Both the position numbers and the translations under genes were made by a program. Of a stretch of 64,000 bases of DNA, positions 14,936-34,178 are shown piece after piece. Below the pieces are notes generated by a model. The model saw only the letters and a list, made by a program, of their open reading frames with translations. It had not been told where the DNA came from and made no database searches. Position 1 is the stretch's first letter. Every line of letters starts with the position of its first letter. Where the stretch lies: assembly GCA_947497065.1 (NCBI GenBank), contig CANMEQ010000008.1, positions 1-64,000 of the forward strand, in the 5' to 3' direction. This DNA is from an uncultured Paracoccaceae bacterium. GTDB lineage: Bacteria; Pseudomonadota; Alphaproteobacteria; Rhodobacterales; Rhodobacteraceae.

Positions 14936-14965
14936 TTGACATTAATGTTTTATCGGCGTAACATT
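14936..14965 (+). promoter_or_regulatory. hipBA promoter with overlapping inverted repeat
   Basis: TTGACA at 14936-14941 and TAACAT at 14959-14964 are spaced 17 bp. An inverted repeat AATGTT (14944-14949) / AACATT (14960-14965) covers the spacer and -10, a likely operator for autorepression by HipB. Confidence 0.65.
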
Positions 14966-14996
14966 GCTGAACTTAGTGTCGCCTGGAGATATCATT

Positions 14997-17260: not shown

Positions 17261-17300
17261 CTTAATCCGACTTATTCATGCTTATTCCTGTTTACTCAGG
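17261..17300 (+). repeat. Four helically phased 10-bp repeats upstream of the DISARM operon
   Basis: Consecutive decamers CTTAATCCGA, CTTATTCATG, CTTATTCCTG and TTTACTCAGG share CTTAyTC at exact 10-bp spacing. They end 58 bp before the start of the HTH gene, so they are a candidate binding site for that protein. Confidence 0.45.
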
Positions 17301-17358
17301 CGACGTAGAGTGCAAGGTTTGCGTCAAGTTAATAGTCTGGACCTGAAAGGGCCGAACG

Positions 17359-17547
17359 ATGACTGATCGATGGCTCTCCGTTGAGGAGATTGCAGATTAC
17401 CTAGGTGTCAGCAAAGACACGGTTTATGGGTGGATCTCCAAGCGCGAAATGCCAGCGCACAAGGTCGGCAGGTTTTGGAAATTCAAGGCCGATGAGGTCG
17501 ACGAATGGGTCAGGAACGGCAAGGCTGGTGACGAATTTCAGGCGTGA
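17359..17547 (+). CDS. Excisionase-fold HTH regulator heading the defence operon
   Basis: A 62-aa protein that is nearly all one HTH_17/excisionase-family winged helix: LSVEEIADYLGVSKDTVYGW followed by the wing HKVGRFWKFKADEVDEW. Such proteins bind DNA as regulators; this one is far from the integrase and lies 31 bp before a methyltransferase gene, so transcriptional control of the defence operon is more likely than excision. The phased repeats at 17261-17300 are its plausible site. Confidence 0.75.
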   Translation: MTDRWLSVEEIADYLGVSKDTVYGWISKREMPAHKVGRFWKFKADEVDEWVRNGKAGDEFQA

Positions 17548-17578
17548 GGCCAAAGGTGCTTGAGGAGTAGTAACAAGA

Positions 17579-18676
17579 ATGAAGGACGTGAAATGCATTG
17601 ACCTTTTTTGTGGTGCAGGGGGGCTTACTCATGGCCTGCAAAAGGAGGGTATTGATGTTGTCGCTGGTGTCGACGTTGAAGAGAGTTGCCGGCACCCCTT
17701 CGAATTCAATAACTCCGCCAAATTTATTAACGAAGACGTCAGTAAGATACTAGGCGAGCAGTTGGACGCTTTGTTCGGGAAAAGTGAAATCAAGGTTCTG
17801 GCAGGCTGCGCACCTTGCCAGCCGTTTTCGACCTATTCCCAACGGTATGATGTTTTGAGTAGTCCTCGCTGGGGCCTCCTTTACCAATTCGACCGCCTCG
17901 TCAAAGAAACGCGGCCCCATTTGGTGACTATGGAGAACGTCCCGACGGTCGCCAAGCATGCGGTCTTCGACGATTTCGCAACTTCGCTTATGGACCAAGG
18001 GTACTACGTCCATCGAAGTGTGGTCGATTGCACGAAGTACGGCCTCCCTCAAACCAGGCGACGTATGGTGCTGCTCGCTTCAAGGCTGGGGCCGATTGAG
18101 ATTGTCGCGCCGGAACCTGAAAACAAGAGCACGGTACGAGACGCGATTGGCGGGCTCGCTCCACTTTCCAACGGTGAAACATTCCATGCCGACGTCATGC
18201 ATACCTCATCCAGGCTCTCTCCCCTTAATGTAGAGCGAATACGCGCATCAAGGCCGGGCGGTACCTGGAGGGATTGGCCTGAACACCTGGTTGCGGCCTG
18301 CCATCGCAAGGACACAGGTCGTACTTACCCTGGCGTTTATGGGAGGATGGAGTGGGATTCTCCCTCTCCTACACTTACCACCCAATATTACGGGTTCGGC
18401 AACGGCAGGTTCGGACACCCGGACCAAGAGCGTGCAATCTCGTTACGAGAGGGTGCTATTCTGCAAGGGTTTCCAACCTCGTATTCATTTGTCCCCGATG
18501 GGAGCCCAATTCACTTCAAAGCGTTAGGTCGGATGATCGGCAATGCCGTCCCTGTAACGCTTGGCGAGGTTATAGGCCGAAGCATCAATCAACACCTCGG
18601 CACAATGTATCAAGAACGCCCTGAGAAAAGGGAGAGAGCCTACAAAAATGAAGAACAAAAGCCCCTGGTCGCATGA
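17579..18676 (+). CDS. C5-cytosine DNA methyltransferase (DrmMII- or Dcm-like)
   Basis: A 365-aa enzyme that transfers methyl from S-adenosylmethionine to cytosine C5. Motif I DLFCGAGGLTHG is near residue 7; motif IV with the catalytic Cys is AGCAPCQPFS near 78; motif VI is ENVP; motif VIII is QTRRRMVLLA near 158; a variable target-recognition region follows; motif X GNAVPVTLGEV is near 320. All motifs are intact. GAGGAG precedes the start. Downstream comes a Vsr remnant and then class 1 DISARM genes. It could be the DISARM cytosine methylase or the survivor of a separate dcm-vsr cassette. Confidence 0.88.
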   Translation: MKDVKCIDLFCGAGGLTHGLQKEGIDVVAGVDVEESCRHPFEFNNSAKFINEDVSKILGEQLDALFGKSEIKVLAGCAPCQPFSTYSQRYDVLSSPRWGLLYQFDRLVKETRPHLVTMENVPTVAKHAVFDDFATSLMDQGYYVHRSVVDCTKYGLPQTRRRMVLLASRLGPIEIVAPEPENKSTVRDAIGGLAPLSNGETFHADVMHTSSRLSPLNVERIRASRPGGTWRDWPEHLVAACHRKDTGRTYPGVYGRMEWDSPSPTLTTQYYGFGNGRFGHPDQERAISLREGAILQGFPTSYSFVPDGSPIHFKALGRMIGNAVPVTLGEVIGRSINQHLGTMYQERPEKRERAYKNEEQKPLVA

Positions 18677-18878
18677 GGCCAGTCCCGGAATGGTGCGCGT
18701 GCGGCAGAAAGGCGCGCGTTATGAGTTGGAGTGTGAGCAGTCTTTGCATGCCAGCGGGTTGCTCTATCGATTAAAAGTTCCATTTTTGTTCCCACCCCTA
18801 AGGGTCGCAAACGTTGGCTCTGAAAGTATTGCAGAGCTGATCCCGTTAACGAAGAATGGAATTAGCCCATGTCGATGA
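18648..18878 (+). pseudogene. Truncated Vsr-type endonuclease remnant
   Basis: A 76-aa open frame overlapping the methyltransferase end by 29 bp, with GGGAGAG upstream. Residues ~13-50 (VRVRQKGARYELE, then SLHASGLLYRLKVPFLF) match the N-terminal region of very-short-patch repair endonucleases, which read like 'RVRQKGT-PELxLRxxLHxxGLRYRL'. The conserved catalytic part (VFVDGCFWHGC region) is missing: after LRVANV the reading is unrelated and ends at the drmD start. Vsr genes classically follow dcm-type methyltransferase genes, which supports the call. It could still be translated but should be inactive. Confidence 0.5.
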
Positions 18879-21800
18879 CTGCTGATGAAATTACTTTTGG
18901 GACTGCGCCGGAACCAGGCCAACTCGTCGATGTCAGGCGTCGGCAATGGATAGTATCCGAAGTGAACGCCGACGCTATCGCCCCTGGACGAGCAAAACAA
19001 CACCTCGTCCGCCTCGCATCAATCGATGAAGATTCACTCGGCGAAGAGATCGAAGTCTTATGGGAGCTCGAACCTGGCGCGCATGTGATTGAACGTGCAG
19101 GGCTCCCACGCATGACTGGGCTGGACGACGCGCAGACATTGCAGGCGTTTCTCGACGCAGTCGTTTGGGGTGCTGCCACCAATGCAGATCGCGGTTATCT
19201 TCAAGCCCCATTCCGCAGCGGCGTAAGCATTGAGGATTTTCAGCTTGATCCCCTTGTGCGTGCGATCGACATGGCGCGCACAAATCTCCTGATTGCAGAT
19301 GATGTGGGCCTCGGCAAAACCATTGAGGCTGGTCTAGTCGTTCAAGAGATGTTGCTTCGTCATCGTGCTAGGACCGTTCTTGTCCTTTGCCCAGCCTCCC
19401 TCCAGGAAAAATGGCGGGCCGAGATGCAAGAGAAGTTCGGGCTCGAGTTCCGGATTGTCGACACCGAATATGTGAAAAACTTGCGACGGGAGCGTGGCTT
19501 GCATGCCAACCCCTGGACTTCATTTCCTCGCCTTATCACTTCTATGGATTGGGCAAAACAAGGCGAAGGTCTGCGGCTCTTGAGAGACGCTCTACCTCCA
19601 CACGTGAGCCATCCTCGAAAATTCGATCTGCTGATTATCGATGAAGCACATAACATCTCCCCCACGGTCGGCCGCTATGCCGTGGAAAGCCTGCGAACAC
19701 GACTGGTCCGTCTTGCGGCACCTCATTTCCAGCATAAGCTTTTTCTTACAGCAACGCCGCACGATGGCTACACGGAATCCTTCACGGCGCTCTTGGAGCT
19801 ACTGGATGACCAACGCTTTGCCCGAAACGTGCTGCCCAGTGATCAGCAACTCGCGCGGGTCATGGTTCGGCGGCTCAAGAGCGACCTAGTCGACGCAAAT
19901 CGAAAACCGCTCTATCCGAAACGCCGACTGGAACCTTTGCCTATCGATTATTCTGCTGAAGAACGGGACGCGCGCCGAAAGCTTGAGGAATTCGTAAAAG
20001 CACGAGAGAGCTCTACAGAGGACGGCCGAGCCGTTGATCATTTTGTGCATCAACTGCTTCGGAAGCGATTGTCTTCCTGTCCAGCGGCATTCGCCGCTAC
20101 ACTCGAACGTCACATTGAAACGATTGAGGGACATCGACGCGCAGAAAACGGCAAGAAGAAATTCGATGATCGGATTCTTAGGCGTGCCATTTCGAAAACC
20201 GAAGAAAACTATGCCGACGACGCTCAGCGCGACGCAGCCGAAGCGGAGGCGATTGAAGAAGCTGGTAAGCACATTCGCCCGCCAAATGGCAAGGAGAGCG
20301 AAATGCTCGGTGAGCTTCGATCGTGGGCACAGCAAGCAGCTCGACGCTCAGACGCCAAATCGGAAGCCATCCTACAATGGCTGACCCAGCATCTGCGCGA
20401 GGGTGATAGCTGGACTGACGAGCGCGTGATCCTCTTCACGGAATACCGCGCGACGCAGCAATGGATGCAGGAGATCTTGGTCGCCAATGGCTTTGGTGGC
20501 GACCGTTTGGCCTTGATCTACGGGGGTATGGACCCGAAGGACCGAGAGGACGTAAAGGCTGCGTTTCAGGCCAGCCCGTCGGTTGCTCCCGTCAGAATCC
20601 TGTTGGCGACGGATGCAGCTTCCGAAGGCATTGACCTTCAGAACCACTGCCATCTGATGATCCACCTTGAAATACCCTACAACCCAAACGTCATGGAGCA
20701 GCGAAACGGTCGTATCGATCGCCACGGACAGAGAGCCAGTGAGGTCGTCATATGGCACCCCGTGGATGCCGAGGGCGGACATGGTGATGACATTTTGCGC
20801 GCTCTGCGAAAGCTTGATGCGATGCGGGCCGATATGGGCAGCGTAAATCCCGTTATTACACCACAGCTGCCCGATTTACTTGAGGGCCGCCGCAAAGACC
20901 TGGATACGCGCGGCGCGGAAGCCAGGATGGAGAAAACTCGCCGCTTCGTGAAAGCTGAACGAGATCTGCGTGATCGCGTGGCAAAGCTTCACGATCGTCT
21001 GAGCGAAACGCGTCGCGAACAGAGCCTGTTTCCGGATCACATCCAACGCGCTGTCAGTACTGCTCTCAAGCTTGCGGACAAACCAGACCTGGAGCCTATC
21101 AGCGTACACGATGCACCGGACGGAACAGTTTTCCGCATGCCCTCCCTTTCGGGTTCATGGTCACGATGCCTTGAAGGTCTCCAGCACCCTTACACCCAGA
21201 AGGTCCGCCCCATAACGTTCGACCATGATGTTGCCAAAGGCCGTGATGACGTCGTTCTGGTTCATCTGAACCACAGACTGGTCCAGATGAGCCTGCGGCT
21301 ACTTCGGGCAGAAATCTGGGCACGCGATGATATCAAAAAACTCCATCGCATCACGGTTCGCTCTCTTCCTAATGAGCAGTTGGATGGCCCGGCTGTTGTC
21401 GTTTTGTCCCGGCTGATCGTGACTGGTGGACACCACCACCGCCTACACGAAGAACTCACTGAGGCGGGCGGATACCTGCGTGAGACAGGTTTCCGCAGGG
21501 AAGACCGAGTTACGGAGATTAGGCGCTGGCTCGACACCTCGCAGCCTGCTGCCGTGTCTAGCGCAACGCTCGAAGCTCTGCGCACCCGTTTTGACAAACA
21601 GCGCGACTCCATTCTTGCAACTGTTGAAGCGCGATCAAAAGACAGGCTGCGTTTTCTCGGAAACACCATCGAAGGTCGCAAGAAAAAGGAAACCGAAGAT
21701 ATCCGGCAGGTTTTGGATGATTTGGAGAAGGCTCTGAAATCCGAAATCAAAGCGGAAGAGCAGCCGGTCCAACTATCTCTTTTCACCGAAGACGAACGTA

Positions 21801-21976
21801 CTCAGCTAAAGCTTGACCTTGCTGCATTGGAAGCGCGTCTGGCTCGACTGCCAAAGGAACGGCAGCAAGAAGTACAGGCTGTCGAGGACCGATATTCAAA
21901 TACCATTGAGCACACCTTCCCCGTCGCTGTCGTGCTCCTAGTGCCGAGCAAGCTCTCCTCGGAGGAACCCAAATGA
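18869..21976 (+). CDS. drmD: DISARM SNF2-like helicase DrmD
   Basis: A 1035-aa SF2/SNF2-type helicase. Walker A DVGLGKT is near residue 144; the DEAH box (IIDEAH) is near 256; the TATP motif is near 294. The C-terminal helicase domain has ATDAASEGID near 580 and QRNGRIDRHGQ near 611. A long charged helical C-terminal region follows. DrmD is the marker of class 1 DISARM, a multi-gene defence system that blocks incoming phage DNA. The ATG overlaps the preceding remnant by 10 bp; the stop overlaps drmMI (ATGA). A second ATG two codons in is possible. Confidence 0.88.
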   Translation: MSMTADEITFGTAPEPGQLVDVRRRQWIVSEVNADAIAPGRAKQHLVRLASIDEDSLGEEIEVLWELEPGAHVIERAGLPRMTGLDDAQTLQAFLDAVVWGAATNADRGYLQAPFRSGVSIEDFQLDPLVRAIDMARTNLLIADDVGLGKTIEAGLVVQEMLLRHRARTVLVLCPASLQEKWRAEMQEKFGLEFRIVDTEYVKNLRRERGLHANPWTSFPRLITSMDWAKQGEGLRLLRDALPPHVSHPRKFDLLIIDEAHNISPTVGRYAVESLRTRLVRLAAPHFQHKLFLTATPHDGYTESFTALLELLDDQRFARNVLPSDQQLARVMVRRLKSDLVDANRKPLYPKRRLEPLPIDYSAEERDARRKLEEFVKARESSTEDGRAVDHFVHQLLRKRLSSCPAAFAATLERHIETIEGHRRAENGKKKFDDRILRRAISKTEENYADDAQRDAAEAEAIEEAGKHIRPPNGKESEMLGELRSWAQQAARRSDAKSEAILQWLTQHLREGDSWTDERVILFTEYRATQQWMQEILVANGFGGDRLALIYGGMDPKDREDVKAAFQASPSVAPVRILLATDAASEGIDLQNHCHLMIHLEIPYNPNVMEQRNGRIDRHGQRASEVVIWHPVDAEGGHGDDILRALRKLDAMRADMGSVNPVITPQLPDLLEGRRKDLDTRGAEARMEKTRRFVKAERDLRDRVAKLHDRLSETRREQSLFPDHIQRAVSTALKLADKPDLEPISVHDAPDGTVFRMPSLSGSWSRCLEGLQHPYTQKVRPITFDHDVAKGRDDVVLVHLNHRLVQMSLRLLRAEIWARDDIKKLHRITVRSLPNEQLDGPAVVVLSRLIVTGGHHHRLHEELTEAGGYLRETGFRREDRVTEIRRWLDTSQPAAVSSATLEALRTRFDKQRDSILATVEARSKDRLRFLGNTIEGRKKKETEDIRQVLDDLEKALKSEIKAEEQPVQLSLFTEDERTQLKLDLAALEARLARLPKERQQEVQAVEDRYSNTIEHTFPVAVVLLVPSKLSSEEPK

Positions 21977-24900
21977 GTAACGATCACGAGTGGCTCAACC
22001 TCGTCGAAGTGTCGGGGCCCTTCTTGGCTTTTCCCATTCTTAAAGACGTATTTCCCCAAGGGCTTGAAGCTCTAGGTTCTGGCCACCCGCAGCGCCTTCG
22101 CAGGACATACGAAGAATGGCGGGAAGCGGTAGAAGTCCAGGATATCGATTTGACAGAGCTCCACGCCGCTTGGGTGAAAGAGGTTCTGTCAACCGCTCTC
22201 GAGATAGACGACGCCGTTCTACGCAGTGGCGATAGCCTCCCTGCGAGCTTAACCATGATGATTCCGGAACATGGGACAACGATTACGCCAGATTTGGCAG
22301 TCGTGAATCCGACGAATGCTGACGAACCTTTGCTTCTCATTCACGTCTACGCACCAGATACTAACCTTGAAGCGACCCATCGTTTTGGCGGACTAGCCAT
22401 TGCGCCGGGAGACCGGATGGTCTCACTGCTCCGGGCGACCGGGTGTCCCATAGGCTTGGTCACCAATGGGGAGCGCTGGATGCTAGTTCACGCTCCGGTT
22501 GGCGCTGTCGCAGGTTTTGCAAGCTGGTACGCGCGGCTTTGGGGGCAAGAGCCTGAAACGTTGCGCGCCTTCGTCAGCTTACTAGGTGTTCGCCGTTTCT
22601 TTGGACCCGAAGATGGCAGGCTGACCGCACTCTACGAACGCTCCTTGAAGCATCAGGACGACGTCACCGAAGCTCTTGGGGAGCAGGTGAGGCGGGCGGT
22701 CGAGGTTCTTGTGCAGTCGCTAGACCGTGCCAATCAAGACCGCAACCAAGAGCTTCTTCGAGATGTCGAGCCGCGAGAGCTCTATGAGGCCAGCCTGACT
22801 GTCATGATGCGGTTGGTCTTCCTAATGGCCGCTGAAGAGCGTGGGCTGCTCTTGCTCGACGATCCTCGCTACGATTCGTTCTACGCCATTTCAAGCCTAC
22901 GTATGCAGCTCCGGTCGGACTCCGAGGAAATCCTGGAGCGCCGCCGCTCTGCGTGGTCACGCCTACTCGGATTGTTCCGCGGTGTATTTGGTGGCATTGA
23001 ACACCCCAACCTCCGGTTACCAGCGCTCGGAGGTTCGCTGTTTGATCCAGACCGTTATCCGTTCCTCGAAGGACGAAAGAAGGGCACCTTCTGGCGGACC
23101 GATCCGTCAGAACCGCTTCCGATCGACGACAGGACCGTTCTGCTTCTGTTGGAGGCCATTCAAACTTTCCAGGGCCGTGCGTTGTCCTATCGTGCGCTTG
23201 ATGTGGAGCAGATTGGGCACGTCTATGAAGGCCTGCTCGAACGTACCGTCAAGCGGGTCGGTGACGTAACATTGGAGCTCGACGGTGGTTCAAAGGCAAA
23301 GAGCCCTCGGATCACGCTTGGAGAGATGGAATCCGCGCGGCTGGATGGATCGTCTAGGGTCGTGGAACTCCTCAAAGAGCGGAGCGAACGTTCCGAAGCT
23401 GCCATTCAAAATGCCCTTGAACGGCAGGTCGATGATCGCCTGGCAGCTCGCCTTCTTACCGTCTGTCGTGGGGATATCTCGCTTCGCGACCGAATTCTTT
23501 CCGTGGCTAACCTGCTGCGGACCGACCCGTGGGGTTACCCTCTTGTCCATCACAAAGGCGCGTTTGTGGTTGTAGTTAGCTCGGACCGAAGCGAGAGCGG
23601 AACGCACTACACGCCAAAGATCCTAACTGAGAAGATCGTAGAAGAAACCCTATCACCAGTCGCCTATTTGGGTCCGGCTGAAGGTAAACCACCCCAAGAA
23701 TGGGAATTGAAGAGTGCAGAGGATCTGCTGGACCTCAAGGTCTGCGATCCAGCGATGGGTTCGGGAGCTTTCCTGGTCCAGGCCTGCCGATGGCTCTCGG
23801 AGCGACTGGTTGAAGCCTGGTCGGCAAGCGAGATGAGCGGCAGAAGGATCGACGGTGAGGGGCGCATCGTCGATGACGAGGCATCCGAGGGCTTTGATCC
23901 TCTGCCGCAGGACATTGAGGAACGCGCCATCGTTGCCCGCCGCCTCGTCGCGGAAAGGTGCCTCTATGGCGTGGACAAAAATCCGCTTGCCGTGGAACTG
24001 GCGAAGCTGTCGCTTTGGCTGACCACAATGTCCAAAGGACGCCCCTTCGGTTTTCTAGACCACAACCTACGCAGCGGCGACAGTCTGCTCGGAATCCACG
24101 ACATCCGGCAATTGACCGAGTTAAGTATGGCACCGAAGGGCTTGAAACAGCTCAGGCTCTTTGGTCGAAGTATCCACTCTGCCGTAGAAAATGCGATCAA
24201 GTTGCGGACCCGTCTGCGTTCTATACCAATCCGGGACATTGGAGATGTGGATGCGATGGCCGCTCTGGATGCTGAGTCTCGGCAGGCGTTGCTGCTCCCG
24301 CAGGCAGTGGCCGATTCCTTTGTCGGTATCATTCTTGCAGAAACGCGTGCGACTGAACGAAAGGATCGGCTACAGGCCCTAGAGGCCTTAGCTGATGCAG
24401 CCGCCAATGGGGTCGAATCTGCAATCGACCAACTTCGCCGGGATGCAATGACCGACCTGCGAATTGATGCGCCCGATGGTCTAGCTCGCGACCCTTTCCA
24501 CTGGCCACTGGAATTTCCCGAAGTCTTCGGCGATGAAAAAAACGGTTTCGATGCTCTAATCGGGAATCCCCCGTTCCTTGGGGGGCAAAAGATTACGGGC
24601 GCGATGGGAACCGCTTTCCGCGAATACCTTGTCGAACATGTCGCTGAGGGGATGCGGGGATCGGCGGACTTCGTCGCCTATTTCTTTCTACGAGCTTTCT
24701 CAATGCTGTCGGAGCGTGGTCTCTTTGGTTTGATCGCTGTGAATACCATTGCGGAGGGAGATACGAGAGACGTTGGGCTTGGGCAGCTCTTGCAGGCTGG
24801 TGGGCAGATCATTGCGGCATATCCAAACGAGGTTTGGCCTGGGGCCGCGAATGTTGTAACTAGCCGCGTTCACATGGCGAAATCGTCCTGGGCCGGAACG

Positions 24901-26286
24901 CGGTTGCTGAACGGAAAGGCCGTCGCATATGTGAGTTCGCACCTGGGCGAGGTCGAGGCATGGTCCCCGAAGAAATTGAAAAGCAATGCTGGGCTGGTGT
25001 TCCAAGGCAGCATTATTCTTGGTGATGGCTTCCTCGTTGAGGAAGACTTTGTCGCCACTGCACTCGCTGAAGATACTCAATATGAACAGGTTCTCTATCC
25101 GTACTTGATCGGCAGAGAAGTCAATCAACATCCGGAACATGAACCTGGACGGAAGGTGATCAATTTCTTTGATTGGCCCGAGGACACCGCACGCTGTTTT
25201 TCTTCAGCTTTCTCAATTGTTGAACGAGAGGTGAAGCCGAGCAGAGAAAAACAGAAGGATGCTGGTGCAAAACGCACGTGGTGGCTACATCTTCGACCAC
25301 GCCCCGAATTATACCACAAGATTGGCCGTGGTGCGCTGTTCCAATCACATCCAGCTGACTGGATTGATGACAACCATCGGCTGGAGCGGGTGATCGTGTT
25401 TGCAACCGGTGCCACCAAGTATCCGTGCTTCACGATGGTTCCAAATGAATACATCTACGCCAACACGGTTTGTGTAGTTGCAAGCGACAGCTTCGGACTT
25501 CTTGGCTGTCTGTCATCTGATATCCACGCGGTTTGGGCTTGGGAGCAAGGTTCCCGAATGAAGCAGGATCTTCGATATACCCATGGTGACATTTTCGAAA
25601 CATTTCCACTACTAGAGGGTCTGCTTGAGGCTGAGACGGGCCGTCTCTCCGAGTTGGGCGGAGAATTATTCCGCACGAGAAGAGAAGTGATGCGCGTCGA
25701 GCAAAAAGGCTTAACCAGCTTCTACAACGATTTTCACAACCCCGAATTTCAACGCCAGGATTTTGGTCGCAGCAGAGAAATTCAAGCGGCGCTCAACGAA
25801 GCCGTCCTCGAAGCCTATGGCCTTGACCAAATTGATCTGGAGCTCGGCTTCCATGAAGTCGGCTATTTGCCCGAAGGAAAGAACACCCGCTTTACGATGA
25901 GCGAGAGGGCGCGACGTAAGGTCCTAGATGGGCTGAGTGAAATAAACAGATTACGCTACCTTGAGCAAGAAGAGCGAAAGGCTTCAGAGAGCAAAGCACC
26001 CAAAAAGCGAAAACGAAACGTTCCCTCTATTGAACAAGCACAACTGAACCTAGATGTCCCAGCGAAGCCTCGACGTGGCAGCTTGGATGCTGATGGCGCG
26101 GCCTCTGAAATCGCTTCCCACCTTAAATCGCGGCGTTCCTGGCTGAGCAAGTCAGACATACTCGCGTATGTCGACATCCCGGGTGGGCAATGGAATGCTG
26201 CGATCAACGAACTGTTGTTGGGCGGTATGGTCGAACGTCGCGGCGAACGCAGTAGTGTTCAGTATAAATTTAAAGAAAGAAATTGA
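21973..26286 (+). CDS. drmMI: DISARM adenine methyltransferase DrmMI
   Basis: A 1437-aa N6-adenine DNA methyltransferase. The SAM-binding motif CDPAMGSGAFL is near residue 590 and the catalytic NPPF motif near 864, the order and spacing of gamma-type/type IIG-like enzymes. The N-terminal ~200 residues resemble a restriction-type PD-(D/E)XK fold (TPDLAVV near 105; ATGCPIGLVTNGERW later), but the usual ExK is replaced by IHVY, so this part looks non-catalytic. A C-terminal target-recognition region and a charged tail with a winged-helix-like end follow. In DISARM the methylation marks self DNA. Coupled to drmD by 4 bp. Confidence 0.88.
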   Translation: MSNDHEWLNLVEVSGPFLAFPILKDVFPQGLEALGSGHPQRLRRTYEEWREAVEVQDIDLTELHAAWVKEVLSTALEIDDAVLRSGDSLPASLTMMIPEHGTTITPDLAVVNPTNADEPLLLIHVYAPDTNLEATHRFGGLAIAPGDRMVSLLRATGCPIGLVTNGERWMLVHAPVGAVAGFASWYARLWGQEPETLRAFVSLLGVRRFFGPEDGRLTALYERSLKHQDDVTEALGEQVRRAVEVLVQSLDRANQDRNQELLRDVEPRELYEASLTVMMRLVFLMAAEERGLLLLDDPRYDSFYAISSLRMQLRSDSEEILERRRSAWSRLLGLFRGVFGGIEHPNLRLPALGGSLFDPDRYPFLEGRKKGTFWRTDPSEPLPIDDRTVLLLLEAIQTFQGRALSYRALDVEQIGHVYEGLLERTVKRVGDVTLELDGGSKAKSPRITLGEMESARLDGSSRVVELLKERSERSEAAIQNALERQVDDRLAARLLTVCRGDISLRDRILSVANLLRTDPWGYPLVHHKGAFVVVVSSDRSESGTHYTPKILTEKIVEETLSPVAYLGPAEGKPPQEWELKSAEDLLDLKVCDPAMGSGAFLVQACRWLSERLVEAWSASEMSGRRIDGEGRIVDDEASEGFDPLPQDIEERAIVARRLVAERCLYGVDKNPLAVELAKLSLWLTTMSKGRPFGFLDHNLRSGDSLLGIHDIRQLTELSMAPKGLKQLRLFGRSIHSAVENAIKLRTRLRSIPIRDIGDVDAMAALDAESRQALLLPQAVADSFVGIILAETRATERKDRLQALEALADAAANGVESAIDQLRRDAMTDLRIDAPDGLARDPFHWPLEFPEVFGDEKNGFDALIGNPPFLGGQKITGAMGTAFREYLVEHVAEGMRGSADFVAYFFLRAFSMLSERGLFGLIAVNTIAEGDTRDVGLGQLLQAGGQIIAAYPNEVWPGAANVVTSRVHMAKSSWAGTRLLNGKAVAYVSSHLGEVEAWSPKKLKSNAGLVFQGSIILGDGFLVEEDFVATALAEDTQYEQVLYPYLIGREVNQHPEHEPGRKVINFFDWPEDTARCFSSAFSIVEREVKPSREKQKDAGAKRTWWLHLRPRPELYHKIGRGALFQSHPADWIDDNHRLERVIVFATGATKYPCFTMVPNEYIYANTVCVVASDSFGLLGCLSSDIHAVWAWEQGSRMKQDLRYTHGDIFETFPLLEGLLEAETGRLSELGGELFRTRREVMRVEQKGLTSFYNDFHNPEFQRQDFGRSREIQAALNEAVLEAYGLDQIDLELGFHEVGYLPEGKNTRFTMSERARRKVLDGLSEINRLRYLEQEERKASESKAPKKRKRNVPSIEQAQLNLDVPAKPRRGSLDADGAASEIASHLKSRRSWLSKSDILAYVDIPGGQWNAAINELLLGGMVERRGERSSVQYKFKERN

Positions 26287-26288
26287 GA

Positions 26289-29200
26289 ATGAATGAGACA
26301 ACCGCAGCCTCCGAGCCCCCGCAATCCGCCTGGCTGATTAAAGGAAAAGCAACAGACCTACCTCTCGCTTTCGATATTGACATCGGTCCGACCAATCAAA
26401 GCGCTATTGGGCCTGGCGACTGGGCGTTCTTCCTGGATGAAAATGAATACATCTCGTCAGTCGGTCGGATCCTTCGCATCCGCTCGGACATCAAGGGCAG
26501 AACGATCTATTGCGATCAGTTCCAGACCATTGATCCGAAGACACCTCTCTCCAAGCTCGGCCTGACTATACCCACCGCACCGGTGACGCGTCTGCCTTGG
26601 GACGATTTTCTGCATGCGCTTCCACTACTCGGCGTTGCGACCCCCGAGGCGGTGCCGTTGAGCAATGATGTGAACTATGTTCGCGATCTCCTTGAGTTGT
26701 CGGTCCGCGACGATCTGCTTGGTCCAGCCGAGGGCCCTCATGAACTGATCAAGGACATGAGTGTCCGAGATCGCTATTTGGTAGGAAAACTGGCCCCGCG
26801 ACGGCCTGACGAAGACCAGACTTCACAGGTCGAGCCAGCTTCTTCTGCGAATGAGGCCGGAGACCTTGAGGACGAACGCACGGCATCTTTGCATGAACCC
26901 GGCGCTGAATTTGCCAGCGCGACCGGGCGTGTCGTGCCAGAAGACGATACGCTGGACGAAATCGACACGACCAATAATCAGTCACTCGTGCCTTCCAGCA
27001 TGGGTCTGACATTTTGCGTCGCTCCCGGCGTGGAAATACTGAATGTAGATGCTCGATGGGGACGCTATGATCGGGTTCCCAATGATGAACATGACATCGT
27101 CAAAACTCGACGCAATCGTCAAACCGGTCGCGAAGAGGAGGTCAAGGTCAGAGTATGGCAGCGCCTCCCATGTGGTGGGCCTGTTAGGCTGCCTTTGGTG
27201 GATGGTCAGATCAAGCCATCAGTTCCTGATCCCGACCAGCCAGACGTAAGACTGCAAGGTACGGTTAGAACAAATCAGAAAGGCGAACGCCTCGTAACGG
27301 TCTTTCTCGTGAACGGCCAAGTCGAGCCGAGCGACAACAAAGACCGCGCTTGGCTGTTTCAGCCTGAGATCGCAGTAGAATCCATTGAAGATAGCCCTGA
27401 CAAATCGGTTTTCAGGCGTCGTCCATCCAACGAGGTCGTGGTCGACGATGAGGAACGCGATCGGCTTGCTCTAATCTATCGCAACCGATTGGAGTTCGCG
27501 GTGGGACATGGCGTATCGGTTCACGTCGATGTAACGCCAAATGACCCTACGACTGCCCTACGAGTAGCAACACAAATCATCCCAAGCTACGAAGTAGCCG
27601 TTACGGAGACTCCAGGTCTCGACCAGCGTGACCGCCCGGCCATGCGACGCATGATCGACGAGGGCTGGCTCGACATGTCGAGACTGGCAGAGATGGAGCC
27701 AGATGCGTTGCGCGACGCTCTCAGCTGCCTAATCGACGATTATGCCATGTGGATCGACGAACAGAAGGCGAGACTGGGTAGCGAAATCTTGGGTTTTGAT
27801 GATCCAGGCAAAGACGTCATCGCTCGTTGTGAAGAAATACAGATCCGCCTGCGGGAGGGAATGGAAACCCTGCTCACAGACGCCGATGCGCTAAACGCGT
27901 TCCGCTTTGCAAACCGGTCCATGGCCATGCAGCGCGTACGAAGCATCTTCGCCCTCAAGCGCAGACGGAACGAGGCGGTCGACGTTGTCTCTTTGAACGT
28001 CCCCAAAAACAGATCGTGGCGACCTTTTCAGCTCGCATTCGTGCTGCTGTCGATCCCGTCCCTGGCAGATCCAGAACACCCAGATAGGACAAACCCAATC
28101 GAGGCTTTTGCTGACCTGCTTTGGTTCCCAACGGGTGGCGGCAAGACCGAAGCTTATCTGGGTGTCGCAGCTTTTACGATGGCGATGCGACGTTTGAAGA
28201 ATGACTTGGGAGGTCTCGACGCTTCGCGAGGCCTTGCCGTCATTATGCGCTATACGTTGAGACTCCTGACGTTGCAGCAGTTCCAGAGGGCAACCACGCT
28301 TCTATGTGCGATGGAGGTTATCCGACGCTCAGACGATACGATTTGGGGCAAGGAACCGTTCACGCTTGGCTTGTGGGTTGGCAATCGCGTCACCCCTGGG
28401 TCTACCGACGCATCCCACCAGGCGATCGGCGCAATTCGCAACAACGACCGCAGCAAGTCCGGCATTGCATCACCTGCACAGTTGACCAGTTGCCCCTGGT
28501 GTGGCTCCGAAATTTCTGGCGGCCGCGACATCGAGGTGGACAAGATTGGTGGTAGAACGCTGATCCATTGTGGCGACAAGCTCGGCAGTTGCGACTTTTC
28601 AAAAGCGAAATCGAACAGTCAGCTCCATCCGGGCTTGCCTGTGAAAGTGGTCGACGAGGAAATTTATCATCGGCCACCTACGATGATGATCGCTACGGTG
28701 GACAAATTCGCCATGATGGCATGGCGGCCAGAAGTTCGCGCTCTTTTCGGTAGAGTTGAACAAGAATGTTCGCGCCATGGCTTACTGTGGCCAAGTCATG
28801 ATTGTGGCACCGGGCACCGAGCTGCTGGAGCGTATCCCGCCGCCAAAGTGAAACCGATCCGGGCCATACGCCCACCGGATCTTATTATCCAAGATGAGTT
28901 TCACCTCATCAGCGGTCCGCTTGGCACGATGGTAGGCCTTTATGAAACGTCAGTGGATGAACTAAGCAGTTGGAAGCTTGGGGAGAAAACGGTGCGTCCA
29001 AAGATTGTCGCATCCACTGCGACGGTGCGGCGCGCTGATGATCAAGTACGCAACGTATTCATGCGTAGGACTTCAGTTTTTCCGCCATCTGGGCTTGATG
29101 TTGAAGACAATTTTTTCTCGGTTCAGAGGCCAATCCACGAGAAGCCAGGGCGGCGCTACATAGGGCTCTGCGCACCAGGCAGTTCGCGGCCAGCGGTACT

Positions 29201-30278
29201 TATCAGGACCTATACGGCCTTCCTTACCGCAGCTCAGGCACTGTTCGATCGGTTCGGACCGGTGGCCGACCCCTATATGACGTTGGTTGGCTATTTCAAT
29301 TCGCTGCGTGAGCTTGGTGGAATGAAACGATTGGCAGAGGACGATGTTCAGACACGATCCTTCCGAGTCAACATGAGCTTGGTGGATCGCCCGGGACTTT
29401 CCCAGAGGCGGGTCGAGGAAATCAGCGAATTGACATCGCGGGTCTCCAGTCAAGACATACCTAGATACCTTGATCAGCTGGAAGTTCCATTCGAGGGCAC
29501 CTTTGATCCGGTTCAGGATAAGTGGATGACCAATAGGACACCTGGCGACGCTAAACCCATTGACGCGGTCTTGGCTACAAACATGCTTTCCGTCGGTGTT
29601 GATGTGAACCGTCTAGGGATAATGGTAGTAAACGGTCAGCCCAAAGGGACGGCGGAGTACATTCAGGCTACTAGCCGTGTAGGCCGAGCGTCACCAGGCC
29701 TCGTTGCAACCGTTCTGACCTGGGCGCGTCCTCGCGACCTTTCGCACTATGAAACCTATGAAAACTACCATGCGACGTTCTATCAGCACGTTGAGGCCCA
29801 GTCTGCTACACCATTCTCACCGCGTGCGTTGGACCGAGGGCTAACTGGCGCAATGCTTTCACTCATGCGCCATACCTACGATCCATTTTCTTCAAATGAA
29901 GGTGCAGGGGCAATGACCAGCCCTAGCCGCAATGAGATGCTGGAGACGATCAGTGCAATCAGCGCACGAACGTGGGAAGTGACCGAAAACTCTGCGAAGA
30001 AGGGCTTGACCGAAGACGAAATGAAAAGCCGAGCCGACGATTGGGCCAATGAGGCAGGCGTCGGAGGTAGAACACTAGTCTACCAAAAACATGGTGCCGG
30101 TCCAACATCCTACCCGCTCCTTGCAAAGCCAGGGATAAAGCCATGGACCGATTGGACCGTCCCGATGTCCATGCGAGAAGTTGAACCCGGTGTAAGGCTC
30201 ATCATGGAGGACGATCGTTCGAACACTGATCCAACTTGGCGACCGCGAATTACGACGGACGAGGAGGACTCAGAATGA
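26289..30278 (+). CDS. drmA: DISARM core helicase DrmA
   Basis: A 1329-aa SF2-type helicase core of DISARM. Walker A PTGGGKT is near residue 613. A zinc-binding insertion lies near 735-765 (CPWCGS, then HCGDKLGSCDF). The DEFH box (IQDEFHLISGPLG) is near 868, then ASTATVRR, then SVGVDVNRLG near 1100 and the motif VI-like ATSRVGR. The N-terminal 500 residues contain an acidic Glu/Asp-rich segment (about 170-240). I take the ATG two bases after the drmMI stop rather than an in-frame TTG overlapping it. The stop overlaps drmB. DrmA with DrmB is the DNA-translocating core in the described system. Confidence 0.9.
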   Translation: MNETTAASEPPQSAWLIKGKATDLPLAFDIDIGPTNQSAIGPGDWAFFLDENEYISSVGRILRIRSDIKGRTIYCDQFQTIDPKTPLSKLGLTIPTAPVTRLPWDDFLHALPLLGVATPEAVPLSNDVNYVRDLLELSVRDDLLGPAEGPHELIKDMSVRDRYLVGKLAPRRPDEDQTSQVEPASSANEAGDLEDERTASLHEPGAEFASATGRVVPEDDTLDEIDTTNNQSLVPSSMGLTFCVAPGVEILNVDARWGRYDRVPNDEHDIVKTRRNRQTGREEEVKVRVWQRLPCGGPVRLPLVDGQIKPSVPDPDQPDVRLQGTVRTNQKGERLVTVFLVNGQVEPSDNKDRAWLFQPEIAVESIEDSPDKSVFRRRPSNEVVVDDEERDRLALIYRNRLEFAVGHGVSVHVDVTPNDPTTALRVATQIIPSYEVAVTETPGLDQRDRPAMRRMIDEGWLDMSRLAEMEPDALRDALSCLIDDYAMWIDEQKARLGSEILGFDDPGKDVIARCEEIQIRLREGMETLLTDADALNAFRFANRSMAMQRVRSIFALKRRRNEAVDVVSLNVPKNRSWRPFQLAFVLLSIPSLADPEHPDRTNPIEAFADLLWFPTGGGKTEAYLGVAAFTMAMRRLKNDLGGLDASRGLAVIMRYTLRLLTLQQFQRATTLLCAMEVIRRSDDTIWGKEPFTLGLWVGNRVTPGSTDASHQAIGAIRNNDRSKSGIASPAQLTSCPWCGSEISGGRDIEVDKIGGRTLIHCGDKLGSCDFSKAKSNSQLHPGLPVKVVDEEIYHRPPTMMIATVDKFAMMAWRPEVRALFGRVEQECSRHGLLWPSHDCGTGHRAAGAYPAAKVKPIRAIRPPDLIIQDEFHLISGPLGTMVGLYETSVDELSSWKLGEKTVRPKIVASTATVRRADDQVRNVFMRRTSVFPPSGLDVEDNFFSVQRPIHEKPGRRYIGLCAPGSSRPAVLIRTYTAFLTAAQALFDRFGPVADPYMTLVGYFNSLRELGGMKRLAEDDVQTRSFRVNMSLVDRPGLSQRRVEEISELTSRVSSQDIPRYLDQLEVPFEGTFDPVQDKWMTNRTPGDAKPIDAVLATNMLSVGVDVNRLGIMVVNGQPKGTAEYIQATSRVGRASPGLVATVLTWARPRDLSHYETYENYHATFYQHVEAQSATPFSPRALDRGLTGAMLSLMRHTYDPFSSNEGAGAMTSPSRNEMLETISAISARTWEVTENSAKKGLTEDEMKSRADDWANEAGVGGRTLVYQKHGAGPTSYPLLAKPGIKPWTDWTVPMSMREVEPGVRLIMEDDRSNTDPTWRPRITTDEEDSE

Positions 30279-32116
30279 GCAGGACACCCGTTGGAGAAAT
30301 CCGCCCTAGCCAGCTTCTTTGGACCTATGGTCCTGGTGCACTCATCGACCTGCCAAACCTATCGGTCGTCACAATGGGCATTGATCGCTGGGAAAAAGAC
30401 ACATGTCAGCCCATCCAAGAAGCACGCCTCCTGGCAAATGTAAGAAGCGTTCTTGGGCCACAGGTCGAAGCACTGCGAATGCCACCAGTTGGAGAGGGCG
30501 ATGCAGTGGATCCATTCTCGGCCGCCGCACTCATAGGCGTCCCGGTCAAGCCTTTTCCTAGGTGGCTGCGCTGCGTAAAATGCGGATTGCTGTCCCCATA
30601 CGACGCAGGCTTGTTCAAGCTGCGTGAAAATAGATACCGGCCAGAGCTCACGCGTTTTGTTCACGAGGGTTGCAGAGGTTCAAAAAACGATCAGAGAGCG
30701 CGAGATGCGGACGCCGTTCCGGCTCGTTTCCTAATGGCCTGCCGCGCAGGTCATTTGGATGATTTCGCTTGGGACTGGTTCGTGCATAGCGGTCCGAGTT
30801 CGTGTCGGGCAACTCTAAGGTTCTTTGAAAGTGGGGCCTCCTTGCAGACTGAAAATCTTTGGGTGAAATGTGACGGCTGTGGAGCGTCGAAAAATATGGC
30901 GCAAGCATTCGGCCAGGCTGGGCGTGACAACTTACCAGCGTGTCGCGGACGCCACCCGCACGTCGACCGTTTCGAAGACGATTGCCAAGAAGCTCCGCGA
31001 GCAATCTTGTTGGGAGCGACCAATAGTTGGTTTCCAGTCACCCTGTCGGCCTTGGCGATCCCTCAATCCGGCGATCCGCTATTACAGATCATTGCCGATG
31101 GCTGGACCTTCTTTGAAGACACTAGCTCGGAAGCCGAGGTTGGCTTTGTGGTTAAGACCTTGAAGAAGACTGCACAGCTTCCGGGGATTGAACAGTTCAC
31201 CAAAGAGCAGATCTGGGCGGCGGTAGAAAACCATCGCGCGGGCGGCTCCGCGGTCGAGCAAAGCGATCTAAAGGGTCCCGAATGGGATGCTCTGACCGCT
31301 GCTAAACCTCCTACTGATTACCCCCACTTTATGAGCAAGAAAGTAGGGGTTCCCAAAGGTTTCAGCTCAGCCATCTCTGGGGTGCTGCTCTTAGAGCGCC
31401 TTCGTGAGGTGAACGCACTATTGGGCTTTACGAGAGTGGAATCACCGGAGGAAGGTGCTGGCGATGAGGCCGCACCACGTGCGCCCCTTGGTCGAAGTGC
31501 GCCCAGTTGGGTGCCAGCAACCCAGGTGCATGGTGAAGGAATATTCATTCGCTTAGACTCAGCGATCCTGCAGACGTGGGCAGACAAAGCGGCTGTCAAG
31601 GCGGTAGATGAACGACTTCGGCAAGGGCACCGTGGGTGGCGACACAAGCGAAACCTTGATCCCCAAGTAGGCTATCCCGGCATCCGGTATGTGATGCTTC
31701 ATACACTCGCGCACATGTTGATCCGCGAGCTTGCCCTTGAGTGCGGTTATAATGCCGCAAGTATTCGCGAACGAATTTACGCAGATGTTGAAGATGAAAA
31801 CGACCAAGCCGGATTTCTCATTTACACGGCTGCCGCCGACTCTGATGGCACCCTCGGAGGCCTTGTGGAGTTAGGAAAACCTGAAAACCTTGGTCGACTA
31901 CTGCGCCAGGCACTTGAGCGAGCACATGTTTGTGCGTCGGATCCGTTGTGTTCGGAGCATGACCCCAGCAAAGATCAATCTCTGCACGGTGCCGCGTGTC
32001 ATGCTTGCTCGTTCGTCTCAGAGACATCATGTGAAATGGGAAATCGGCACCTTGATCGCTCGCTCGTCGTGCCGACGCTCGAAAACCCTGATGCAGCTTT
32101 CTTTGAGGCGATCTGA
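30275..32116 (+). CDS. drmB: DISARM protein DrmB (DUF1998)
   Basis: A 613-aa protein with Cys clusters. CVKCG is near residue 100 and CDGCG near 200, both zinc-ribbon-like. The C-terminal DUF1998 domain (from about 470: YVMLHTLAHMLIRELALECG) ends with the conserved Cys cluster CHACSFVSETSCEMGN near 575-590. DUF1998 proteins act as helicase partners; in DISARM DrmB binds DrmA. The start is the ATG overlapping the drmA stop, after GAGGAGGA; an in-frame upstream start is rejected. The stop overlaps the drmC start (TGATG). Confidence 0.9.
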   Translation: MSRTPVGEIRPSQLLWTYGPGALIDLPNLSVVTMGIDRWEKDTCQPIQEARLLANVRSVLGPQVEALRMPPVGEGDAVDPFSAAALIGVPVKPFPRWLRCVKCGLLSPYDAGLFKLRENRYRPELTRFVHEGCRGSKNDQRARDADAVPARFLMACRAGHLDDFAWDWFVHSGPSSCRATLRFFESGASLQTENLWVKCDGCGASKNMAQAFGQAGRDNLPACRGRHPHVDRFEDDCQEAPRAILLGATNSWFPVTLSALAIPQSGDPLLQIIADGWTFFEDTSSEAEVGFVVKTLKKTAQLPGIEQFTKEQIWAAVENHRAGGSAVEQSDLKGPEWDALTAAKPPTDYPHFMSKKVGVPKGFSSAISGVLLLERLREVNALLGFTRVESPEEGAGDEAAPRAPLGRSAPSWVPATQVHGEGIFIRLDSAILQTWADKAAVKAVDERLRQGHRGWRHKRNLDPQVGYPGIRYVMLHTLAHMLIRELALECGYNAASIRERIYADVEDENDQAGFLIYTAAADSDGTLGGLVELGKPENLGRLLRQALERAHVCASDPLCSEHDPSKDQSLHGAACHACSFVSETSCEMGNRHLDRSLVVPTLENPDAAFFEAI

Positions 32117-32877
32117 TGGAACCGCTCCTGCTTGCCGTGACAGAAATTGTCTCTTTGCTTCCTCCCTCTCGAGTGCAGTCAATTGCTGAACGGATCCGTG
32201 TTTCAACCCCTGAGGGTGCTGGGCGGACCTTTCACCAGCTTGTAAGTACTCCTGGTGCGCGCGCGGCATTGGATGACCTCGTGTCGAACTGGAAGACATC
32301 TGCGATTTCTGGAGAGCATCTGTCGGGTTTGCTAATTGGTGCCGCCCATTTGCGTGGCCATACACTTCAAGAAGGCAACGTCGAACTTGTTTGGACCGGT
32401 CCTCAAACCCCGTTCGTCCCGACACGCCGAACAGAACAAGTGTTACTGGATCTCATAAATCGAGCGAAGACCGACATATTCCTCGTCAGTTTCGTTGCAT
32501 TTGACTTTCCAACTGTGGTCGATGCATTGAATGCAGCAATCTCGCGCGACGTGAATGTCAAAGTGCTGTTGGAGAGCTCAGTCTTTCATGGTGGCAGTCT
32601 CTCGGTAGATCCAGTCGCTACCATGCGAAAGCACGTTCCTGTTGCATCTCTTTTTGCTTGGACTGATAGAGCAGCACCCTTCGCAGATGGCAAAGTCCAC
32701 GCAAAGGTTGTTGTCGCCGATGGGGAAATTGCTTTTCTGACCAGTGCAAACTTGACTGGACACGCGCTGGAAAAAAACATGGAAGCAGGCGTGGTTATAG
32801 ATGGAGGTAAGGTCCCTCAGGACCTTCGCGCTCATCTTGAGGCACTGATTGCAACCAAGGTTATCCGTAGGCTTTAA
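32116..32877 (+). CDS. drmC: DISARM phospholipase-D-like protein DrmC
   Basis: A 253-aa PLD-superfamily protein with a single HKD motif (HAKVVVADGEIAFLTSANLT, about residues 195-214); PLD nucleases with one motif act as dimers. The N-terminal ~90 residues are helical. Last gene of the drmDMIABC string. In the described system DrmC is associated with all DISARM loci but is reported as dispensable for protection in at least one tested system. The motif is intact here. Confidence 0.9.
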   Translation: MEPLLLAVTEIVSLLPPSRVQSIAERIRVSTPEGAGRTFHQLVSTPGARAALDDLVSNWKTSAISGEHLSGLLIGAAHLRGHTLQEGNVELVWTGPQTPFVPTRRTEQVLLDLINRAKTDIFLVSFVAFDFPTVVDALNAAISRDVNVKVLLESSVFHGGSLSVDPVATMRKHVPVASLFAWTDRAAPFADGKVHAKVVVADGEIAFLTSANLTGHALEKNMEAGVVIDGGKVPQDLRAHLEALIATKVIRRL

Positions 32878-33299
32878 CTTGATAGTTTAAGCCGTAGTGC
32901 TCGGCGCAGAGATTTAGATAGACTGCATCAGGGCTCAACGGGCCTTCGGCCCGCTCACCCCGATCCAGACATCATTCTTTTTTGTTTGGTCCGCCCAACA
33001 TCCCTGACCGTGGCGGTCAACCTTAGTCCATCCCCAAAATCAGCCACCAATTTCCCCTGTCTCGCGGGCGAGCCATTCCTCGCGGGGCAAATTGGCGTCT
33101 GATTTTGGCGCAGACATTTTCTTCGCAAATGTGGCCGATTGACAGCCCCCTTCAGGGCCGTGGGTCGGGCTTTGCCCTCTCCCACTCTGTTCCGCCGAAT
33201 ACATGCGTATTCGGTCAGATCAGGTGGCCGAGGCGCAGCCCATCGGCGGAAAGTGGGCGCACAGCCTCACCCGCGTCACTTTGATTGAGGAGGCCACAA
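32878..33299. other. Intergenic stretch between drmC and ardC
   Basis: No gene seen. It contains the hairpin CGGGCC-ttc-GGCCCG (32939-32953) 61 nt after drmC, which could end the DISARM transcript. It also contains a diverged copy of the leader block of 16715-16765 (about 33051-33150) and a palindrome at 33195-33214. The ardC promoter should lie here. Confidence 0.5.
33195..33214 (+). promoter_or_regulatory. Perfect palindrome upstream of ardC (candidate operator)
   Basis: CCGAATAC-atgc-GTATTCGG: 8-bp perfect arms with a 4-nt centre, 85 bp before the ardC start. Symmetry suggests a dimeric repressor site controlling the early-entry antirestriction operon. Confidence 0.45.
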
Positions 33300-34178
33300 A
33301 TGGCACCGAAGTTTGATGTTTATGCCCATGTCACCGAAACTATTATTGCAGAGATCGAGGTAGGCACGCCGCCGTGGCGCAAGCCGTGGACTGGAAGCGC
33401 GTCCGGCATTGCCCTGCCGACACGGCACAACGGCGAGGAGTATCGCGGGATTAATATCCTGATGCTCTGGGTCATGGCGGCCAAGCATGGCTATGTGTCC
33501 AGCCGCTGGATGACCTACAAACAGGCGCAGGAGCTGGGCGGACAGGTCCGCAAAGGTGAAACGTCGTCGACCGTGGTCAAATACGGGACGTTCACCCGAG
33601 AGAATGAGTTGGGCATCGAGGAAGAGCTGCCCTATGCGCGCGCATACCGCGTGTTCAATGCCGATCAGATCGAGGGTTTGCCGGAGGACTACTACATCCG
33701 GCCTGAGGCCCCGCGCGATCTTGGGACGGCGAAAGATCCAGCGCTTGAGGCGTTTTTCAGCCGAACGGGGGCGGAGATCCTCACCAGCGACGACCCACGC
33801 GCTTATTACAGCCCCGCCAAAGATCACATCCACATGCCGCCGATTGCCACGTTTCACGATGCGGCAGGCTACTATGGGACCTTGGCCCATGAGGTGATCC
33901 ATTGGACTGGTAGCGAAAAGCGGCTGGAGCGGATCAAGAAGTTTGCGAACCGCGAAGCCTATGCCTTTGAAGAGTTGGTGGCAGAAATTGGTGCTTGTTT
34001 CCTCGGTGCCCAGATTGGTGTTGCGCCGGAATTCGGCCAAAGCGCCGCTTATGTCGAAGGGTGGTTGAAAGCGCTCAAAGAGGACAAGCGGGCGATTTTT
34101 CGCGCGGCGTCCGAGGCGCAGAAAGCTGCCGACTTTGTTTTGCACGCAGCAGGTCAGAGCAAGGAGGTGGCGGCATGA
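33300..34178 (+). CDS. ardC: ArdC-like antirestriction protein (ssDNA-binding plus zincin metallopeptidase)
   Basis: A 292-aa protein. The N-terminal ArdC domain (about residues 1-130; contains PPWRKPWTG and GINILMLW) is a ssDNA-binding module. The C-terminal zincin-like metallopeptidase domain has the HExxH motif HEVIHW near residue 197 and a downstream Glu-rich helix AFEELVAEIGACF. ArdC proteins protect conjugatively transferred DNA from restriction. The start is the ATG after GGAGG; an upstream in-frame TTG is rejected. Three small genes follow with overlaps. A reverse open frame across it is a shadow. Confidence 0.9.
   Translation: MAPKFDVYAHVTETIIAEIEVGTPPWRKPWTGSASGIALPTRHNGEEYRGINILMLWVMAAKHGYVSSRWMTYKQAQELGGQVRKGETSSTVVKYGTFTRENELGIEEELPYARAYRVFNADQIEGLPEDYYIRPEAPRDLGTAKDPALEAFFSRTGAEILTSDDPRAYYSPAKDHIHMPPIATFHDAAGYYGTLAHEVIHWTGSEKRLERIKKFANREAYAFEELVAEIGACFLGAQIGVAPEFGQSAAYVEGWLKALKEDKRAIFRAASEAQKAADFVLHAAGQSKEVAA

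Follow-up and report, generated by a model that had tools for sequence, protein, structure and literature searches.

The window examined here, a stretch of 64,000 nucleotides of contig CANMEQ010000008.1 from an uncultured Paracoccaceae bacterium, carries a class 1 DISARM defence operon which opens with the genes of a small helix-turn-helix (HTH) protein and a C5-cytosine DNA methyltransferase (C5 enzyme; Table 1). All of the genes are found where an original prediction, made from the letters alone, had placed them, on a single strand and each matched by family models, which bears out the reading of the string drmD-drmMI-drmA-drmB-drmC as class 1, of the C5 gene as an intact member of the operon upstream of drmD and in its orientation, and of the small gene ahead of it as an HTH gene. 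The set of drmA, drmB, drmC, drmD and drmMI, all of which are required by the PADLOC definition of class 1 DISARM (PMC9252829), is complete, and drmE, the lack of which had likewise been predicted, is without a match (NF038316, E ≤ 0.001) across the genome, which is 99% complete; of the drmE and drmMII pair that defines class 2, solely a drmMII-type gene is there. Adjacent frames overlap from drmD through drmC, 31 bp separate the HTH gene from the C5 gene, and the interval between the C5 gene and drmD is occupied by the remnant of a vsr gene; a scan reports no terminator in that interval (terminator-like sites of the region number 21, compared with 16.4 in shuffled sequence), and the operon is presumably transcribed as one unit. 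In the C5 enzyme, the motifs which we take to be of catalytic type are in place. The locus belongs to a common branch of class 1 DISARM; its vsr gene is decayed and its candidate operator well supported. Very probably, it is an operon on a putative integrative conjugative element which combines two self-marking methyltransferases and an HTH-C5-vsr front with control of the whole by the HTH protein and a repeat array.

Table 1. Genes and putative control sites of the DISARM operon, in positions of the window
Feature	Position	Strand	Description and evidence
Direct repeats	17261-17270, 17271-17280, 17281-17290, 17291-17300	+	four tandem 10-bp units, likely operator; read directly
-35-like element	17291-17296	+	TTTACT, inside the last 10-bp repeat
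-10-like hexamer	17314-17319	+	AAGGTT, weak; 17 nt after TTTACT, position inferred
HTH gene	17359-17547	+	62-aa HTH_17 / MAD1-like regulator; Pfam PF12728 68 bits; PADLOC mad1; NCBIfam NF047737 (MAD1) 86 bits, cut-off 80
C5-cytosine DNA methyltransferase gene	17579-18676	+	drmMII-type, intact; PF00145 178 bits, profile 2-323/324; PADLOC DrmMII 5e-87
vsr remnant	18648-18878	+	76 aa; alignments with relatives; overlaps C5 gene end and drmD start
drmD	18869-21976	+	SNF2-like helicase; NF038317 1344 bits
drmMI	21973-26286	+	MmeI/PglX-like adenine methyltransferase; PADLOC DrmMI 1766 bits; Pfam Eco57I and MmeI domains
drmA	26283-30278	+	helicase; NF038325 1450 bits; Serratia DrmA structure 7s9v 1734 bits
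drmB	30236-32116	+	DUF1998 / MZB; NF038324 757 bits; PF09369 MZB
drmC	32116-32877	+	PLD-family nuclease; NF038319 240 bits

Relatives of the operon were collected as 37 loci by a scan of genome contigs with short DrmD peptide patterns, a sample which favours close relatives (identity of the best segment 63-96%, with one locus at 50%) and includes several near-identical cassettes; four loci with too little upstream sequence (L013, L014, L021, L031) were dropped, and 33 were counted. Rather than almost never, as the original prediction had allowed for in the case of a chance neighbour, a C5 gene is found in 30 of the 33, at most about 2.2 kb ahead of drmD, on the same strand in 29 and inverted in L035, a broken copy (L030) being counted among them; none was found upstream of drmD in L024, L032 and L034. 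A vsr-like frame stands immediately before drmD in equally many loci (none in L012, L024 and L032), and the HTH gene is present in 23, with at least 75% identity in 22 and, in divergent form, with 35% in L007. The same order is shown by RefSeq for a Microvirga plasmid, where the gene that separates C5 from drmD is annotated as 'very short patch repair endonuclease', and in a class 1 operon of a Deinococcus plasmid, C5 and vsr genes are located at the opposite end, just after drmC, which together with the inverted C5 gene of L035 indicates that the association with DISARM survives rearrangement. In this branch of DISARM, the additional gene for cytosine marking belongs to the regular inventory; the system is otherwise ordinary, and within the loci sampled here the branch is found mostly in Alphaproteobacteria. 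A hybrid of class 1 and class 2 is ruled out by the missing drmE and the identical layout of most relatives counted, and the double marking of self DNA, which the original prediction had ascribed to a possible hybrid, is neither unusual nor new in view of these counts and of the publication of both methyltransferases for Serratia (PMC9142583).

In front of the HTH gene, a promoter-like region and an array of 10-bp repeats, which the original prediction had passed over, together span positions 17261-17319. TTTAC precedes the HTH start by 64 to 71 nt in all of the 23 loci in register on it, which are 21 of the 22 close-HTH loci of the DrmD scan, the window and L099, and also in L003, which was added later; L001 carries a second TTTAC further out, and the -10-like hexamer is nearer to the consensus in several relatives than in the window. 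Over 16 distinct blocks, window included, identity within the array amounts to 0.47 at lag 10 and 0.45 at lag 20 (z = 11.8 and 9.6) compared with 0.25 after shuffling, whereby the controls for the array (shuffles, random stretches and upstream regions) keep base composition only. A leave-one-out weight matrix scores 22.7-56.4 in 15 of the 16 blocks and fails in L030 (-20.7), where the array is apparently out of register, while in 13 loci without this HTH (nine of the 10 in which none was found, L032 not being among them, the divergent L007, and L100, L101 and L103) no upstream stretch searched scores above -5.7. These array-negative loci include L019, L023 and L025, whose DrmD matches that of the window as closely as does the DrmD of most HTH carriers; L007 is best at lag 10 as well and, by eye, has a different repeat unit. 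Within the window, the array site reaches 58.7, with the window block in the matrix (42.1 when left out), and the next best site 1.7; as the operator fragment matches no other place in the genome, no wider regulon is seen at that sensitivity. The array is likely the operator of the HTH protein, and a search of the literature, by titles and abstract openings, found no description of a DISARM regulator or operator. As a separate observation, L019, without an HTH found, has a small frame before its C5 gene (8264-8464) which by eye resembles a Phd-type antitoxin.

From the sequence we infer that the HTH protein binds DNA and in which direction it acts: it would bind the four repeats across the -35 region cooperatively and adjust the expression of the entire operon. 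The most likely role is that of an autorepressor, since the repeats cover the -35-like element and its closest published analogue, RptR (RMS-proximal repressor), is a repressor. Like the HTH gene, RptR is described as standing first in a methylation-based defence operon, as small and of a single domain, and as having direct repeats, three in its case, in its own promoter, but these are 9-bp units with a TAGCTA palindrome (PMC12255303), in contrast to the 10-bp units of other sequence in the window, and RptR (9R2Z) is not among the five PDB matches of the HTH protein at E ≤ 1, its presence in the searched set being unchecked. Autorepression would lead to a burst of expression on entering a new cell and to a low dose later; alone it would be unable to delay the effectors behind the methyltransferases if all share the promoter. 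The original prediction had instead seen in the HTH protein a switch that turns defence on after methylation. Such a role, or that of an activator in general, is possible but doubtful: the array ends on the -35-like element, a spot which activators can also occupy, but both methyltransferases and the effectors follow in one close-packed, partly overlapping run behind the same array, so that the HTH protein alone gives no delay and the proposed timing is unsupported, and RptR acts as a repressor on its three repeats (PMC12255303).

Control through a 10-bp array might not be particular to DISARM. Among 289 genomes of the class, 72 have a match to the MAD1-like HTH family, three of them over the cut-off, including that of the window. 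In 17 other HTH loci, the 14 best besides that of the window and three weaker ones (in L161, the HTH frame contains a stop and its start is uncertain), PADLOC recognizes nine proteins at seven loci downstream of the HTH gene, namely BREX BrxC (L149, L155), type I restriction enzymes (L151, L154, L158) and type III-like methyltransferases behind a DrmD/BrxH-like helicase (L147, L148). Of these 17 loci, 12 have lag 10 as their best; among random stretches this holds for 10 of 148, and among regions upstream of other genes for 16 of 150. At this lag, z exceeds 3 in 6/17, 2/148 and 4/150, respectively, one of the latter four (L009) being the DISARM array, which there precedes a gene of the opposite strand; the 17 DISARM-linked HTH genes, all best at lag 10 and 11 of them with z > 3, are the set on which the array was discovered and thus no independent test. 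A 15-base element of L147 and L148 recurs, with at most four mismatches, 45 to 56 nt before the HTH gene in five of 15 other loci (0.015 expected per locus), and is not found in the other ten (L149, L150, L153, L155, L158-L163). The evidence leaves it evenly balanced whether small single-domain MAD1-like HTH proteins form a family common to class 1 DISARM, BREX, type I and type III-like restriction-modification and MADS (methylation-associated defence system) operons, each acting via a 10-bp array at its own promoter, with a joint change of array sequence and recognition helix that is seen only by eye.

For the operon as a whole, the following course of events is proposed. DrmMI would mark self DNA at adenine and the C5 enzyme at cytosine, while a DrmA-DrmB complex with DrmD would attack unmarked incoming DNA and DrmC would act as an accessory nuclease, roles which are taken from published work on relatives. 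The usual layout of the branch opens with HTH, C5 and vsr, the last of which probably repairs T:G mismatches that arise from deaminated 5-methylcytosine.

A number of observations weigh against such a unified operon. No promoter is reported at 17291 by a consensus scan, the -10-like hexamer of the window being weak, and five of the 17 other HTH loci have their best lag elsewhere than at 10. The HTH gene is optional, as it was not found in 10 of the 33 relatives. In the stretches examined of distant class 1 plasmid loci (Oscillatoria, Sphingomonas and Rhodococcus; three of the five records concerned, from 15 plasmid records of which these five were examined), neither C5 nor vsr is found near drmD. 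DrmD over the cut-off occurs in 4/385 genomes of the class and 7/398 of the phylum, the one of the window being counted in both; of the nine other genomes, G131, G399, G716, G582 and G091 have no C5 or vsr match, so C5 and vsr are not essential to class 1 DISARM. Synonymous divergence from L001, the nearest relative, is higher in the front (HTH 0.84, C5 0.69, vsr 0.50) than in the core (drmD 0.21, drmA 0.29, drmB 0.16), which gives the front cassette a partly separate history. A scan for internal promoters, with fewer sigma-70-like sites than in shuffles, says little on their occurrence, as the candidate promoter at 17291 is missed as well. Of the remaining genomes over the cut-off, G295 and G698, the latter apparently the genome of L010, hold C5 and vsr, G637 has just a remote C5 match (27% identity), and the contig of G466 is too short to judge. 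Common in close relatives and not found in a number of more distant loci, the cassette is thus regular in one branch of class 1, not class-wide. From its higher synonymous divergence, the HTH-C5-vsr front has probably been exchanged as a unit.

These observations also nourish the alternative that HTH and C5 form an independent, solitary methylation cassette, which is by chance a neighbour of DISARM without a part in it. Faster divergence of the front and distant class 1 loci without C5 are in its favour, as are C5 relatives outside DISARM, at 52-60% identity in four plasmid neighbourhoods, three of which, unlike the fourth, hold a HEPN-like nuclease and a DUF262 gene beside C5. The C5 gene, however, adjoins drmD in 30 of the 33 closer relatives, which by record title belong to several orders, the vsr frame runs into the C5 gene on one side and into drmD on the other, in the window as in many relatives, C5 also accompanies the Deinococcus class 1 operon in its other arrangement, and the Serratia DISARM operon is described as holding both methyltransferases (PMC9142583). 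Chance neighbourhood is mostly rejected by the count among relatives and, improbable as it is, retained on account of the faster divergence of the front cassette; the C5 gene is preferably read as part of the DISARM operon. Two arrangements in the loci compared are recorded in their own right: C5 relatives of 54-60% identity stand on plasmids together with DUF262 and a MAE_28990/MAE_18760 HEPN-like nuclease (L174 3995-6880, L175 2146-5032, L176 2161-5056), and the DISARM-like operon of a Sphingomonas plasmid (L102 9317-26715) sits between cas3 and casA of a type I-E CRISPR locus.

In relatives, the Vsr frame between C5 and drmD comprises about 141-184 amino acids (26 aligned and four more checked, the start being approximate in L020 and L027), and the intact Vsr of L099 matches PF03852 with 61 bits and E. 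coli Vsr (1cw0) at an E-value of 9e-12. The vsr of the window, in contrast, has 76 codons, which are in frame, has lost about 70 internal codons including the catalytic part, as judged from alignment with relatives, and is without a Pfam match. Of the original idea that a dcm-vsr cassette had been joined to class 1, the part that stands is that relatives do carry vsr at this place; the breakage of vsr in the window had gone unseen. Compared with Dcm-Vsr cassettes, the relatives likewise pair a C5 gene with Vsr (L099 being the one tested), but this pair is placed inside DISARM and the Vsr of the window is a remnant. Relative to L001 (DrmD 96% identical, vsr frame full-length), the ratio of nonsynonymous to synonymous substitutions (dN/dS) is 0.58 in the remnant, compared with 0.03 in HTH, 0.07 in C5 and in DrmD, 0.13 in DrmA and 0.09 in DrmB; in DrmMI it is 0.30, raised by an exchanged C-terminus. 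The vsr frame has been kept open, which may be of relevance to translation into drmD. The least probable of the alternatives is that Vsr acts, or once acted, as a restriction-like effector of DISARM instead of in repair, so that its loss in the window would lower the cost of the system. In its favour, vsr precedes drmD in 30 of 33 relatives, even where C5 is inverted (L035) or not found (L034), and a Caulobacter Vsr-like protein is described to trigger a DNA damage response without its cytosine methylation (PMC12907096). Against it, the authors of that study suggest accidental breaks during mismatch repair and give C5-vsr linkage as the usual arrangement (PMC12907096), and L012 lacks vsr and keeps C5 and the drm genes. 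We retain repair as the probable function of Vsr in this branch. Elsewhere in the genome of the window, a second C5 gene has behind it a vsr match that passes the family cut-off (G000:C2:372386-373650, within L115 and L166), and this vsr, at G000:C2:373441-373650, could in principle substitute for the broken copy. By titles and abstract openings, the literature search found no paper on a Vsr gene within DISARM; in PMC12458937, Vsr domains of the related systems ARMADA and Druantia are described, which are not this gene.

The two methyltransferases differ in how the putative target-recognition regions vary. In the C5 enzyme, this region presumably lies between the motifs at residues 158-162 and 289-299. 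In a comparison of 21 loci that includes the window, residues 211-300 have a mean identity to the window of 0.80-0.91, which ranks with the best conserved parts of the protein, and residues 181-210 one of just 0.45, so part of the region varies. DrmMI, with identities of 0.63-0.92 up to residue 780, falls to 0.16-0.37 past residue 960, in the MmeI-type target-recognition domain, and breaks sharply at about residue 780 in the comparison with L001. From these profiles we infer the specificities of both enzymes, probably one conserved cytosine motif, as a mostly constant mark, and exchanged adenine motifs, as a changeable mark. For the Serratia DISARM enzymes, the motifs ACAC(mA)G and YMT(mC)GAKR are described, although the 'respectively' of the source pairs them with the enzymes crosswise, and in structural work the ATPase activity of DrmAB is lower on DNA with 5-methylcytosine (PMC9142583). 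Such a reduction would fit a constant cytosine mark that is read by the core complex.

Among known systems, the DISARM of Serratia sp. SCBI comes close in that N6-adenine and C5-cytosine methyltransferases are both described in its operon (PMC9142583), and its DrmA, with a trigger loop that PMC12458937 names as a feature of class 1, is clearly homologous to the DrmA of the window; in the window, vsr is broken. Plasmid pR24_2 of Microvirga terrae (NZ_CP102847) shares the order HTH, C5, vsr, drmD, MmeI-like gene, drmA, drmB and drmC and differs by an intact vsr and by two additional genes between the MmeI-like gene and drmA. With MADS, the window has in common an HTH protein over the NF047737 equivalog cut-off (MAD1), while the remainder of the operon is DISARM and no other mad family is among the PADLOC matches listed for it, weak mad3 and mad8 matches falling outside the operon; no paper on the MADS genes themselves was found in the literature search.

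The neighbourhood holds genes for a relaxase, a coupling protein, TrbE, TrbI and an integrase beside a tRNA-Cys gene, so that DISARM looks like the cargo of an integrative conjugative element. On the same element, about 400 bp after drmC, an ArdC-type anti-restriction gene (ArdcN and MPTase-PolyVal; 33285-34178, plus strand) is encoded. A HipA-like kinase gene (15292-16512, plus strand), the start of which is overlapped by a small HTH-type gene (14964-15299), possibly forms with it a HipBA toxin-antitoxin pair. Further genes are those of a protein with a strong PADLOC match (428 bits) to the candidate defence protein PDC-S36 (39681-40583, plus strand), of a protein with HTH and IrrE-like metallopeptidase parts similar to PADLOC RmrA and CapP (41109-42518, minus strand), possibly a cleavage-controlled regulator of the element, and, near the integrase end, of an OLD-family nuclease (PADLOC Old, GajA-like; 54263-56035, plus strand).

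The locus alone adds little, as DISARM with both methyltransferases has already been published. The new point is the likely repeat-array switch before the operon, a kind of control that apparently also exists where relatives of the HTH protein head other defence operons. With a short, exact candidate operator and a candidate binding protein at hand, it becomes testable how DISARM is regulated, as does the question what keeps the cytosine mark apparently constant when the adenine mark is exchanged. If MAD1-like HTH proteins indeed act through such arrays across DISARM, BREX, restriction-modification and MADS operons, they would give defences which must not run ahead of self-methylation a shared layer of transcriptional control.

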